Positions 37,475 through 43,265 of a DNA stretch of 64,000 nucleotides are shown piece after piece; position 1 is the stretch's first letter; each line of letters begins with the position of its first letter. The position numbers and the translations under genes were made by a program. Under the pieces are notes generated by a model. The model was not told the DNA's origin and ran no database searches. It saw nothing but the letters and a program-made list of their open reading frames with translations. Source of the stretch: Methanobrevibacter smithii ATCC 35061 (lineage in GTDB: Archaea > Methanobacteriota > Methanobacteria > Methanobacteriales > Methanobacteriaceae); NCBI RefSeq assembly GCF_000016525.1, contig NC_009515.1, forward strand, positions 522,501-586,500, read 5' to 3'.

Positions 37475-38320
37475 ATGACAAATATACAATTATCAACTGA
37501 AAACTTAAGTTTTACATACCCTGACGGTACACGGGCTTTAAAAAATATCAATATCGAAATTGAAAAAGGAGAAAAAGTAGCTATTATCGGACCTAACGGT
37601 GCAGGCAAATCAACACTTTTCTCACATTTCAACGGTTTAACAGAACCTACCTCAGGATGTGTTAAAATAGAAGGCAAACCTATCTCTTTTGAGAAAGATG
37701 AACTACTTAAAGTCAGACAAAAAGTTGGAATTGTATTTCAAGATCCGAATGACCAGTTATTTGCACCAACCGTAAAAGAAGATATAGCTTTCGGACCTAT
37801 GAATTTGGGTTTAAGCTACGATGAAGTGGAAAAACGTGTTGAAGATGCACTGAAAATGGTTGGTATGGAAAATTATGAAGATAAAACCCCACACCATTTA
37901 AGTGGAGGGCAGCAAAAAAGAATAGCTATTGCCGGAATAATAGCTATGAAACCTGAACTGATGATTCTGGACGAACCGACAGCCGGACTTGACCCTGACG
38001 GTGTTGAAAAAGTGCTGAATATTATGAATCAGCTTAATGAAGAAGGGATGACATTAATAATTTCATCACACGACATAGACATGATCAGCAAGTATGCAGA
38101 CAAAATATTCGTTCTTTATAATGGTGAGATAATAGAATCAGGAAATAAAAACAAGATATTTTCAGATATGGAATTATTAAAAAAAGCTCATTTAAGAACA
38201 CCGATAACAACAGAAATACTGTATAATTTAAAAGAATCAGGTTTGAATGTCAATACAGAAAAAATAAGTGTTAAAGACACATGTGCAGAAATTATAAAAG
38301 CTAAACAAATTAATGAGTAG
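37475..38320 (+). CDS. cbiO: ECF transporter ATP-binding component CbiO/NikO
   Basis: ATPase of 281 aa. Walker A GPNGAGKST, Q-loop FQDPNDQLF, signature LSGGQQKR, Walker B LMILDEPTAGLDP and switch His in SSHDIDMI are all present. It powers the CbiM/NikN/CbiQ importer. Its 3' end overlaps the converging zinc-ribbon gene by 11 bp. Confidence 0.94.
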   Translation: MTNIQLSTENLSFTYPDGTRALKNINIEIEKGEKVAIIGPNGAGKSTLFSHFNGLTEPTSGCVKIEGKPISFEKDELLKVRQKVGIVFQDPNDQLFAPTVKEDIAFGPMNLGLSYDEVEKRVEDALKMVGMENYEDKTPHHLSGGQQKRIAIAGIIAMKPELMILDEPTAGLDPDGVEKVLNIMNQLNEEGMTLIISSHDIDMISKYADKIFVLYNGEIIESGNKNKIFSDMELLKKAHLRTPITTEILYNLKESGLNVNTEKISVKDTCAEIIKAKQINE

Positions 38321-38510
38321 CTTTTTTTCTATTTTTAATTTTATCTTTAAGTTTTATAATAAAATCAAATTCTTGATCAAGTTCTGGTGAGTTACCAAAT
38401 CCACAATTAGGGCAATGAACAGAATGACATCCATGTTTTCCGCAGCCGGAGCAACCTCTGTTTGGAATCTCATTTTCGTCAAATTCATATCCACACATTC
38501 TACATTTCAT
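38310..38510 (-). CDS. Zinc-ribbon protein near feo genes (66 aa)
   Basis: A small Cys-rich protein: CRMCGYEF, CSGCGKHGCHSVHCPNCGFG, then a basic helical tail. Eight Cys and two His can hold two metal ions. The start is ATG 38510 after GGATGATT. It lies 35 bp downstream of feoA on the same strand, so it may be part of the feo transcript, perhaps as an iron- or zinc-handling accessory. No known name; function inferred only from position. Confidence 0.65.
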   Translation of the reverse strand: MKCRMCGYEFDENEIPNRGCSGCGKHGCHSVHCPNCGFGNSPELDQEFDFIIKLKDKIKNRKKATH

Positions 38511-38545
38511 AAAAATCATCCAGAAAAAATAAATAATTAAAGGAT

Positions 38546-38806: not shown

Positions 38807-38903
38807 TTTAGGCTTACCTAAAATAAAGTTTTTAGTTATACCTAATTAAAATCTAATTTAATATTTAGAAGAAATAGTATATAAATATTTAGGTAATCCA
38901 AAA
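38807..38903 (-). promoter_or_regulatory. feoA promoter with iron-box-like palindromes
   Basis: A perfect TTTAGG-CTTA-CCTAAA palindrome (38807-38822) sits 31 bp before feoA. Two weaker copies lie at 38831-38845 (TTAGTTATACCTAA core) and 38888-38903 (TTTAGGTAATCC). A TATA box, TTTATATAC on the minus strand (38877-38885), lies between the two weaker copies. The shape matches DtxR/IdeR-type metal-responsive operators; the regulator gene is not in the window. Confidence 0.7.
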
Positions 38904-41087: not shown

Positions 41088-41218
41088 TTTAGGCGTGCCT
41101 AAATTAAAGTTTAAAAATTTATGATAATTTTCAAATATCTTCTGCTTAAAAATAAGGCTTGCCTAAACCTACACTTAACTTTGTTTTAATGCTATTTAAA
41201 TGTTTAGGTAAACCAAAA
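41088..41218 (-). promoter_or_regulatory. feoB promoter with three iron-box-like palindromes
   Basis: The copies are TTTAGG-CGTG-CCTAAA (41088-41103, perfect), TAAGG-CTTG-CCTAA (41153-41166) and TTTAGG-TAAA-CCAAAA (41203-41218). An AT-rich TATA-like CATTTAAATAG (minus strand, 41192-41202) adjoins the last one, the same order as at feoA. Probably represses feoB when iron is plentiful. Confidence 0.65.
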
Positions 41219-41285
41219 ATATCGAATAATTTATATAGCCCATTATAACAATAGTAATATTAATTATTAAAAGTGACTAAAAAAT

Positions 41286-41369
41286 TTAGGTATGCCTAAA
41301 AAAATAGAAAGCTTTATATACTACAACAACTAACTTAATACATAGTGGTGTAAAGTTAGGCTCACCTAA
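41286..41369 (+). promoter_or_regulatory. Promoter of tandem unit 1: two iron boxes around a TATA box
   Basis: TTTAGG-TATG-CCTAAA (41286-41301), TATA box TTTATATA (41314-41321), and TTAGG-CTCA-CCTAA (41356-41369). The transcription start is expected near 41343, so the second box lies just downstream of it. The same layout recurs in units 2 (41606, 41634, 41677) and 3 (41903, 41931, 41973), with box-to-TATA start distance 28 bp in all three. Confidence 0.7.
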
Positions 41370-41601
41370 ATTTATAGGATCCTAAAATTACAACTACTCA
41401 AAACACATTATTAGTCAAATAATAAACTCCAAAATTTATTATATTAAATTGGTTTTCACAATTTTCTGATTTAATATAAAGATCAAAAACATGGAAAAAC
41501 TCTGCCAAGTTTCCATGTAAAAACACGAGGTGTTTAAAATCAATGGACATCAATTTAAACACCGAATTATCTCTTTTTAAAAAAAATTATTTTTTATATA
41601 A
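41343..41601 (+). ncRNA. Putative metal-regulated small RNA 1
   Basis: Predicted transcript of about 250 nt without a credible ORF. Hairpins: stem A TTATATTAAAT/ATTTAATATAA (41439-41449 with 41469-41479), stem B CATGGAAA/TTTCCATG (41490-41497 with 41510-41517), and terminator stem C GGTGTTTAAA/TTTAAACACC (41529-41538 with 41554-41563) followed by TCTCTTTTT. Stems A and C recur in unit 2. Two short frames, of 9 and 25 codons, exist, but neither recurs in unit 2. A RyhB-like role in sparing iron is only an analogy. Ends are estimated. Confidence 0.5.
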
Positions 41602-41605
41602 TAAA

Positions 41606-41690
41606 TTTAGGCATACCTAAAAAAATGAAAACATTTATATACTATCATGAACTACAGTATAACTGGTGATGAAAAATTAGGCTCACCTAA
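41606..41690 (+). promoter_or_regulatory. Promoter of tandem unit 2
   Basis: TTTAGG-CATA-CCTAAA (41606-41621), TATA TTTATATA (41634-41641), TTAGG-CTCA-CCTAA (41677-41690). Spacing repeats that of unit 1 to within one base. Sequence between TATA and second box (ACTACAGTATAACTGGTGAT) is shared with unit 3. Confidence 0.7.
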
Positions 41691-41890
41691 ATTTATTGGA
41701 AGTCTAATTTAAAATTACCTATATCAGTCAAATAATAAATATGGTCTCCAAATAGATATTAAATTAAATATAAACTACTCCCTAATTTAATATTCTACCT
41801 CCATATTATTTTCCTCAAAAATAGGTGTTTAAAACGGACCAAACATCAATTTAAACACCAATTATCTCTTTTTAAAAAAATAATTTATTG
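41663..41890 (+). ncRNA. Putative metal-regulated small RNA 2
   Basis: Predicted transcript of about 220 nt, paralogous to RNA 1. Stem A is a perfect 11-bp ATATTAAATTA/TAATTTAATAT (41756-41766 with 41783-41793); terminator stem C is GGTGTTTAAA/TTTAAACACC (41824-41833 with 41850-41859), followed by ATTATCTCTTTTT. A shared AGTCAAATAATAAA segment occurs before stem A in both RNAs. Only a three-codon frame follows the GGTG near the start. Ends are estimated from the TATA box and the T-run. Confidence 0.5.
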
Positions 41891-41902
41891 TTGTATATAA
41901 AT

Positions 41903-42208
41903 TTTAGGTTGACCTAAAAAAATAAAAACAGTTATATACTACTTCGAACTACAGTATAACTGGTGATGAAAATTAGGTATACCTAAAAAATATCTAATTT
42001 GAAATTACTAATGTGTTGTTGGTTTAAAACCATATTACTACACTCCGATTGTTATTAAATTAGTTTATACTCTCTTTCTCTAATTTAATAAAAAGCATAT
42101 AACTACTCTCACGAAATTAAATATGTATTATCATATTTAATTTCACCTATCAAATAAAATATTTATTTTTAAGATTAAATCGAATAATCAAAACTAGGAG
42201 ATGATCTC
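41903..42208 (+). promoter_or_regulatory. Promoter and structured leader of unit 3
   Basis: TTTAGG-TTGA-CCTAAA (41903-41918), TATA GTTATATA (41931-41938), TTAGG-TATA-CCTAA (41973-41986). The leader keeps stem A (TATTAAATTAG/CTAATTTAATA, 42053-42063 with 42080-42090), but in place of terminator C it has a 13-bp hairpin GAAATTAAATATG/CATATTTAATTTC (42113-42125 with 42132-42144) without a T-run. The transcript would therefore continue into the 37-aa gene. Confidence 0.55.
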
Positions 42209-42322
42209 ATGGGTGTAAGACCAAGCTGTTGTGAAACACCAAAAGAGGAAACAAGCAAAGTAAAAAAGAATATTAAAAAAGTATTTAATTTCTTCTTCGG
42301 ATGCTGCAAAAATAAAAAATAA
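42209..42322 (+). CDS. 37-aa protein with two Cys-Cys pairs under an iron-box promoter
   Basis: ATG at 42209 follows AGGAGATGATCTC, a good site with suitable spacing. The product begins MGVRPSCCETPKEE, has a lysine-rich middle, and ends in VFNFFFGCCKNKK: Cys at 7, 8, 32 and 33. The hydrophobic FNFFFG next to the second pair could touch a membrane. Four Cys could bind one iron or zinc ion or an Fe-S cluster. I know no family for it. Its control region resembles the two small-RNA units upstream. Confidence 0.6.
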   Translation: MGVRPSCCETPKEETSKVKKNIKKVFNFFFGCCKNKK

Positions 42323-42548: not shown

Positions 42549-43265
42549 ATGAGAAGAAGAAAAAAACTGATTATCGCCATTTTACTTGTTATTTTAATTG
42601 GATTAATCGCAGTAATTGCAGGTGAATTATTCTTACCTCACGATAATGAATTAGCTCAAGGCTCAAAGAACATACTTGTATGTGCAATTGATGAAAGTGA
42701 ACCTAGACCTGGAATGGGTGCCTGTGATATGGCATTTATCGTGTCATTACAAGATGGTGAACTTGTCAATTATACTGAAATATATCCTCACGGAATGACT
42801 CACCCTAATGCTTCGGAGCCCCAAGAAGCTCAAGAACAAGGAGCAGGCGAAAAATTGTTACTTCACGATTCATTCTGGGACAATGATACTAAAAAATCCA
42901 TGCAGCTAGCAAAAGAAATTGTAGAATACAATACTAGTGAAAATATTGATGCTGTTGTAGCTGTTAACAGTGAAGCATTAGATGCAATATTGAAAAGTGC
43001 TGGAACATTAGATGTCAACGGTACTCAAATGAATGCAAGCGGTATTGACATAATAAGAGAAGAACAATATACTGGTGGCCAAACTAGAGGAGCTGCAGTA
43101 ATGGACATTGTAAAAGCTGCAGGTCATGCTGCAAGCGACCCTCTTAAAAAAGCAGAAATGGTTAATGCTGCTTTAGACCAATATTCCAAAGGAAATATCG
43201 TAATGGATCCCCCAGGAGCATTTGTAGGTTTACTTGCTTCCAAAGGAATCAATAATTTAATATAA
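42549..43265 (+). CDS. DUF4012 / LytR-like extracytoplasmic protein
   Basis: A 238-aa protein with a basic start (MRRRKK), one membrane helix (residues 7-27) and an outer domain. NILVCAIDESEPRPGMGACD is the typical entry strand of DUF4012 and LytR-CpsA-Psr-like folds, and AVVAVNSEALDAILKSAGTLDVNG is a second family block. LCP enzymes attach polymers to cell walls; here a link with pseudomurein or surface polymers is a guess. Single gene with its own terminator. Confidence 0.65.
   Translation: MRRRKKLIIAILLVILIGLIAVIAGELFLPHDNELAQGSKNILVCAIDESEPRPGMGACDMAFIVSLQDGELVNYTEIYPHGMTHPNASEPQEAQEQGAGEKLLLHDSFWDNDTKKSMQLAKEIVEYNTSENIDAVVAVNSEALDAILKSAGTLDVNGTQMNASGIDIIREEQYTGGQTRGAAVMDIVKAAGHAASDPLKKAEMVNAALDQYSKGNIVMDPPGAFVGLLASKGINNLI

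Follow-up and report, generated by a model that had tools for sequence, protein, structure and literature searches.

Two conserved, covarying families of predicted RNAs with twin DtxR-type boxes in an array beside feoB of Methanobrevibacter smithii

Iron-responsive regulatory RNAs are a classic theme in bacteria. RyhB, PrrF and MrsI (PMC9410917) work by an iron-sparing logic, and MrsI is predicted to be under the control of IdeR, the same kind of repressor that we infer for the three putative RNAs described here, U1, U2 and U3. These share the logic in our proposal, but they have no match in Rfam. The logic of IsrR, a Fur-controlled iron-sparing sRNA of Staphylococcus (PMC9410917), is also similar to the one proposed for U1-U3, although IsrR is bacterial, responds to Fur and not to DtxR and has proven targets, whereas those of U1-U3 are unproven. 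In Bacillus subtilis, the iron-repressed sRNA FsrA binds Shine-Dalgarno (SD) sites through a C-rich motif (PMC9410917), and U1-U3 are proposed to act alike. The small chaperones of FsrA, FbpABC, invite comparison with a small basic ORF found after one of our two families; this protein, however, is Cys-rich, its function is unknown and it was not compared with the Fbp proteins. The working of LhrC1-5 of Listeria (PMC4132741) can also be likened to that of U1-U3, but these bacterial RNAs are controlled by LisRK and not through an iron box.

Few sRNA functions have been established in Archaea. Among methanogens, sRNA162 and sRNA154 of Methanosarcina mazei have been described (PMC3510493, PMC3600222), and sRNA162 masks a ribosome-binding site; the two are described there in connection with methylamine use and nitrogen, not with iron. 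We found no iron-responsive regulatory RNA of a methanogen in the open-licence PubMed Central literature searched, and a mention of the boxes in the study of the archaeal DtxR regulon by Leyn and Rodionov (2015) is not excluded.

The window, that is the whole stretch of M. smithii DNA analysed, is 64,000 nt long. Between feoB and a DUF4012 gene it contains three small-RNA-like units in tandem, U1 (~41285-41578), U2 (~41606-41873) and U3 (~41903-42152), the last with a different 3' half from the other two. Every unit has two boxes of the form TTAGGNNNNCCTAA, spaced 69-70 nt apart, and a TATA box that starts 27-28 nt past the start of the upstream one. In U1 these are the upstream iron box TTAGGTATGCCTAA at 41286-41299, the TATA box TTTATATA at 41313-41320 (+) and the downstream iron box TTAGGCTCACCTAA at 41356-41369, 70 nt from the first. 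The boxes of U2 lie at 41607-41620 and 41677-41690 with a TATA box from 41634, and those of U3 at 41904-41917 and 41973-41986 with a TATA box from 41932. A TATA-like element at a spacing comparable to that of U1 was present in most of the units compared. The original prediction, which was made without database searches, had described a palindrome, a TATA box and a second palindrome in each of two tandem units. The layout held when the coordinates were re-read by a script; the number of units held only in part, as there are three units of two families, and U3 and the small ORF at 42209-42322 had been missed.

The 14-bp box exactly matches the half-site TTAGGNNNNCCTAA proposed for IdeR/DtxR (PMC8464063). 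It is also found upstream of feoB (41089-41102, taken as the same regulon), where there is in addition a one-mismatch box at 41153, and upstream of feoA (38808-38821); the identities of FeoB and FeoA were verified by Pfam. The earlier claim that the palindromes match those at feoA and feoB was thus correct. In the genome (1,853,160 bp), TTAGGNNNNCCTAA occurs at 12 sites, compared with 2 for a reversed control pattern, which exceeds chance. Eight of the 12 lie between feoA and the end of the array, including the six within U1-U3; of the other four, two are at a P-type ATPase operon and fdhD, one is by ABC-transporter genes, and one falls where an ORF ends (3'), without any obvious link. A single match to PF02742 in the genome means that one DtxR-type repressor is encoded; it is a protein of 236 aa (genome 204431) that matches PF01325 and PF02742 and carries a FeoA domain.

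Paired boxes 66-74 nt apart were found upstream of 57 of 67 family A copies and 31 of 41 family B copies (the families are defined below), compared with 80 of 2000 random stretches from the same loci, a control that includes true promoters. Of the ten family A copies without such a pair, five had one box and five had none in the stretch read; of the ten family B copies, seven were the 3' modules of fusions and three had boxes about 60 nt apart. The sequence evidence gives good support to the view that the box pairs of U1-U3 are operators of the DtxR/IdeR type; binding and iron-dependent repression are inferred. Three family A copies (L011:1309-1470, L026:1198-1365 and L099:3402-3559) had no box within 130 nt upstream, and those at L011 and L026 have similar upstream sequence, possibly an insert.

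A DNA search matched 37 of 61 genomes. Of these, 36 belong to the genus, the genome of the window among them, and the other one to the order, with an E-value of 7e-4. Forty units were extracted from the 30 loci returned, and two families emerged, A (with U1 and, as a variant, U2) and B (with U3). Using covariance models, family A was found in 57 and family B in 49 of 60 Methanobrevibacter genomes; when only good-quality genomes of the genus were counted, the numbers were 31/31 and 27/31. Many genomes contain several copies of the RNAs. Family A was present in 30 of 31 members of the genus and in none of 49 genomes from other genera of the order, the latter with filters set more strictly, as in large searches. 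Family B was sought outside the genus by its stem pattern only, without a covariance model; 38 stretches were found among 84,980 species genomes, all of them in Methanobrevibacter. They contain 40 occurrences of the pattern, of which 29 are family B, 10 are fusions of A with the 3' module of B and one remained unclassified.

Both families show covariation. In 62 distinct rows of family A, 98.8% of the cells were paired and nine pairs were doubly changed, and double changes were seen in 61 cells, compared with 16.3 in shuffles; in 44 distinct rows of family B, 99.2% of the cells were paired, nine pairs were again doubly changed, and the double changes numbered 24 cells compared with 4.9. None of 500 shuffles reached the observed value in either family, and when partners were slid as a control, pairing fell to 25-50% in both. 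These large alignments were fitted to the model and so lean towards structure; in plain 20-row alignments the covariation was weaker, with two doubly changed pairs in each family. Compared with dinucleotide shuffles, the folds had z-scores of -4.35 (U1), -3.99 (U2) and -6.12 (U3), and none of 200 shuffles was as good in each case. No match in the region reached the gathering score of any of the 4227 Rfam models; the best scores, with E-values of 0.4 and 1.4, were to miRNA and snoRNA models. Sequence alone thus shows that the two RNA families are conserved, covary and carry twin boxes of the DtxR type; their transcription and iron response are inferred, and it is very likely that these are conserved, iron-box-controlled RNA genes. 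It had been predicted that the stems keep pairing while the loops differ, and the compensatory changes in relatives bear this out; lack of stem conservation in related genomes, set beforehand as a refuting result, was not what was seen, as the two families covary across the genus. The proposal of iron-controlled small RNAs with a RyhB-like logic is supported at the level of sequence, with expression, iron response and targeting all inferred.

The units could also be seen as clusters of decoy sites that titrate DtxR, any transcripts being incidental. Six boxes do lie within about 700 bp beside feoB, which is itself preceded by a box. Against this, covarying RNA stems and conserved loops follow the boxes, and in six of the nine stretches read at other loci (L099-L107) there was a single unit. 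We consider the decoy reading very unlikely.

The U1 RNA (41343-41578, +; 5' end inferred from the TATA box) matches the family A covariance model and consists of a P1 stem, a P2 hairpin with CUCUGCCA in its loop and a 3' terminator hairpin, GGTGTTTAAA/TTTAAACACC then TCTCTTTTT, at 41529-41578 (+). The U2 RNA (41663-41873, +; 5' end likewise inferred) ends in the same terminator elements, GGTGTTTAAA/TTTAAACACC then TCTCTTTTT, at 41824-41873. Across the family, the order is AAUCUCCAAAA, the P1 stem UAUUAAAUUAG/CUAAUUUAAUA, the P2 hairpin with UCUGCCA in its loop, and a terminator hairpin GGUGUUUA.../UAAACACC, which in many members has the loop CUCUCCUC and is often followed by UAUCUCUUUUU. The P2 motif CUGCC was found in 56 of the 62 distinct rows, in five of which the stem is just 2-4 bp long, and six rows were without it; the CUGCC loop is absent from U2 itself. 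U2 has the module CCATATTATTTTCCTC (41801-41816, +), which is antisense to an SD-spacer-AUGG initiation region, for example that of mvhA. The CCAUAU half of this module is partly paired in the predicted fold, and the segment is present in six loci.

Family A was also considered as protein-coding, and this was rejected for want of a long frame. The longest sense ATG frame in 65 units had a median length of 19 aa and a maximum of 47, and no ORF of at least 80 aa overlapped a family A copy (one overlapped a family B copy). On the sequence evidence, the non-coding nature of family A is well supported. A T-run was found near the end of 58 of 65 family A copies, compared with 17 of 33 family B copies (near the model end), and the next ORF was convergent to family A in 37 of 65. 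In 26 copies the next ORF was on the same strand and DUF4012-like, 103 to 1300 nt away, in some cases with a B unit between. With a promoter and a terminator of its own, family A fits an independent transcript at the sequence level, its transcription being inferred. The original claims that units 1 and 2 hold no credible ORF and that both have an AT-rich hairpin and nearly identical terminators were confirmed. In other species, the arrays at L102, L104 and L106, each made up of two or three family A units, are convergent with a rubrerythrin gene (Pfam).

The picture is less simple for family B. The U3 RNA (41961-42152, +; both ends inferred) follows the family order ACACUCCG, a P1-type stem as in family A with ACUCUC in its loop, CAUAUAACUACUCUC, and a 13-bp stem. 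Its highly conserved module CATATAACTACTCTC (42096-42110, +) is antisense to GAGAG-UAGUUAU-AUG. Downstream there is a small ORF of 37 codons (42209-42322, +) with a good SD sequence, AGGAGATGATCTC, whose product (MGVRPSCC...FFFGCCKNKK) is Cys-rich, basic and Lys-rich, and after this the DUF4012 gene (42549-43265). In 21 of 40 occurrences, the B module is followed at 17-89 nt by a small ORF for a Cys-rich basic protein of 34-40 aa; in three of the 40 (one B and two fusions) less than 80 nt of downstream sequence was available for examination. The homologues end in FFFGCNC plus one residue, and in M. smithii the ORF begins 64 nt after the module and ends in FFFGCCKNKK. Differences at the three codon positions were 0.28, 0.21 and 0.48 (378 pairs from 28 sequences), which fits coding. 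A Pfam and NCBIfam search with three of the small-ORF proteins gave no family. Short DNA matches in two genomes hinted at a second, unlinked copy, which was absent from the stretches fetched.

It is therefore possible that family B is a structured 5' cis-acting leader of the small ORF, the DUF4012-type gene or both, and that only family A is a true sRNA. The proximity of the small ORF and the excess of changes at its third codon positions speak for this, as does the T-run near the model end in no more than 17 of 33 copies. In 27 of 33 B copies, the ORF of at least 80 aa that comes next is DUF4012-like and shares the strand of B, at a distance of 84 to 401 nt, and 20 of the 27 have the small ORF between; a TATA-like element was seen in the interval in only seven of the 27. 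On the other hand, the module is kept without the small ORF in eight of the 28 B occurrences for which sufficient downstream sequence was available, as well as in all ten A-B fusions (two with less than 80 nt downstream), the next ORF is convergent in six of 33 B copies, and in 27 of 27 cases the interval from B to the DUF4012-like gene includes a T-run of at least five, but this run does not precede the small ORF in every case. The presence of the DUF4012-like gene after most B copies raised our estimate of the leader reading and lowered that of the iron-sparing reading and its bolder form, both given below. The DUF4012 gene may also belong to the same iron-controlled unit as family B. The small-RNA interpretation is thus qualified for family B, which may be a leader too.

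The 3' stem of U3, an A/U-rich inverted repeat, GAAATTAAATATG/CATATTTAATTTC, with a variable loop (42113-42144, +), is near-invariant. Twelve of its 13 pairs never vary in 44 rows, while the loop does, and the stem is also found in the A-B fusions. The constraint acts on its sequence rather than on its structure, for a reason that is unexplained; an RNA duplex, a DNA site or a pairing arm can only be offered as candidates. The RNAs might alternatively serve mainly to bind a protein, as a sponge with CsrB-like logic, the C/U-rich loops and the B stem being the protein sites. Several conserved C/U-rich loops in each RNA, several copies in many genomes and the invariant stem pairs beside a variable loop, which suggest sequence-specific recognition, are in favour of this. 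Some of the loops, however, are complementary to ribosome-binding regions beyond shuffles, as shown below, and we think the sponge unlikely.

The reading we prefer, and hold to be somewhat more likely than not, is that U1-U3 are iron-repressed trans-acting RNAs that mask ribosome-binding sites and thereby spare iron; expression, iron response and targets are inferred. When iron is plentiful, metal-loaded DtxR would shut the promoter by binding the boxes on either side of it, the first lying before the TATA box and the second just past the expected start site. In iron shortage the RNAs would be produced alongside FeoAB. According to the alignment and folding, they combine covarying A/U-rich hairpins with C/U-rich segments that are conserved and, by prediction, mostly unpaired. 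In family A these are AAUCUCCAAAA, UCUGCCA and, in many members, CUCUCCUC; in family B they are ACUCCG, ACUCUC and CAUAUAACUACUCUC. CAUAUAACUACUCUC reads as the antisense of a whole initiation region, with the SD sequence, a 7-nt spacer and AUG. These segments would pair with the initiation regions of mRNAs for iron-rich enzymes, block their translation and spare iron, and the small Cys-rich basic protein, whose gene is downstream of B in many species, would be co-induced.

Pairing was examined in samples of initiation regions from M. smithii (591 genes, with mvhA and hdrB left out) and two other genomes, G029 (361) and G014 (340). The samples came partly from evenly spaced stretches and partly from stretches picked for their Fe-S genes; Cys motifs alone served to label Fe-S proteins, a simple script assigned the starts, and the tests in the three genomes are not independent because the genes are orthologous. 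The A_L1 loop paired with initiation regions more strongly than 97, 96 and 96 of 100 shuffles in the three genomes. This computation shows that some of the unpaired C/U-rich loops are complementary to ribosome-binding sites beyond shuffles.

Evidence that the targets are iron proteins is weaker. A_L1 favoured Fe-S genes, with 8, 3 and 1 of 100 shuffles as strong, compared with 19, 7 and 72 for an anti-SD control. For B_P1, 5, 7 and 2 of 100 shuffles showed as strong a bias, for A_T 1, 5 and 21, and for B_S 13, 41 and 5; neither B_P1 nor B_S had general affinity for initiation regions. No consistent Fe-S bias was seen with A_P1 (20, 15 and 5 of 24 shuffles as strong), A_P2 (11, 19 and 24) or B_L1 (20, 1 and 12). 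A first Fe-S test yielded only one significant loop out of 11, U3_P1 (uncorrected p 0.001), and the best single matches of U3_P1 were weaker than those of most shuffles. A plain CU repeat used as a control was biased towards Fe-S genes as well (p 0.003), and no simple SD motif was clearly enriched in them. Iron-protein targeting thus rests on a modest bias in some loops, which the CU-repeat control shares.

The U2 segment had its four best matches at the genes for dihydroneopterin aldolase, mvhA, DUF6110 and hdrB; the fourth-best score was above 60 of 60 shuffles and the best score above 52 of 60. The best NCBIfam model for mvhA was VhuA, below the cut-off. Nine near-matches to the segment were counted where 0.72 were expected (3 of 1500 shuffles had as many), three of them at mvhA, two of these in genomes where the segment itself was not seen. 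The nine are partly driven by layout, because the complement of the segment resembles the common SD-spacer-AUG arrangement.

When the CAU of the B module was aligned with the start AUG, full pairing over 12 further nucleotides was found in two of 1112 ATG genes: a CMD-family gene of M. smithii (with two G-U pairs) and a flavoprotein gene (PF03358) of G014 (with none). Among 3000 shuffles, 16 gave at least one full match and none gave two, in a test framed after the matches had been seen. In a second G014 sample (400 kb) there was no match to the module with up to one mismatch, and with up to two there were three, compared with 1.1 (40/300). Each full match concerns a different gene in a different species, and the CMD start of the other species matches incompletely. 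Inspection by eye of 29 start regions of hdrB and 26 of mvhA (30 loci each) revealed no covariation between sRNA and target; the SD sequence AGGAGAG of hdrB was kept in 26 of 29 without tracking the B loop. The UUCUGCCA loop has its complement at the start of hdrA, AUGGCAGAA, where UGGCAGA or UGGCGGA was found in 23 of 29 cases; five of the six misses came from a start misplaced by the script and were not rechecked. Since Met-Ala-Glu starts may be common, this possible pairing is a lead only. The candidate targets in M. smithii are hdrB, mvhA, and genes for an FwdF-type and another polyferredoxin, for which the evidence is suggestive and the pairing inferred.

A bolder version of the iron-sparing reading, possible but less likely than not, would be a genus-wide archaeal system of modular RNAs switched by DtxR. 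The RNA cassettes would have been duplicated, fused and shuffled, with segments antisense to complete start regions; in gut and rumen methanogens short of iron, these segments would throttle hydrogenotrophic methanogenesis (Hdr, Mvh, Fwd), and the co-induced Cys-rich micro-protein would be an RNA chaperone or an iron handler. If the iron-sparing reading is right, the iron supply in the gut and rumen would control methane enzymes through RNA, which would offer a handle on methane output, and Archaea would have a multicopy RNA family whose promoters, structures and candidate targets are clear.

Some further observations concern the surroundings of iron boxes in M. smithii. Downstream of feoA, at 38310-38519 (-), a Cys-rich protein of 69 aa is encoded, whose matches to rubredoxin-like zinc ribbons were weak and below the cut-off. 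At L092:3001-3014 (genome 735700), one iron box lies immediately upstream of a pair of ABC-transporter genes, with an AraC-type regulator nearby. Two iron boxes 42 bp apart were found at L091:2912-2967 (genome 286411-286466), with a heavy-metal P-type ATPase/DUF6110 operon on one side and fdhD on the other; this is likely to be a further DtxR-controlled locus, with a possible role in iron efflux.
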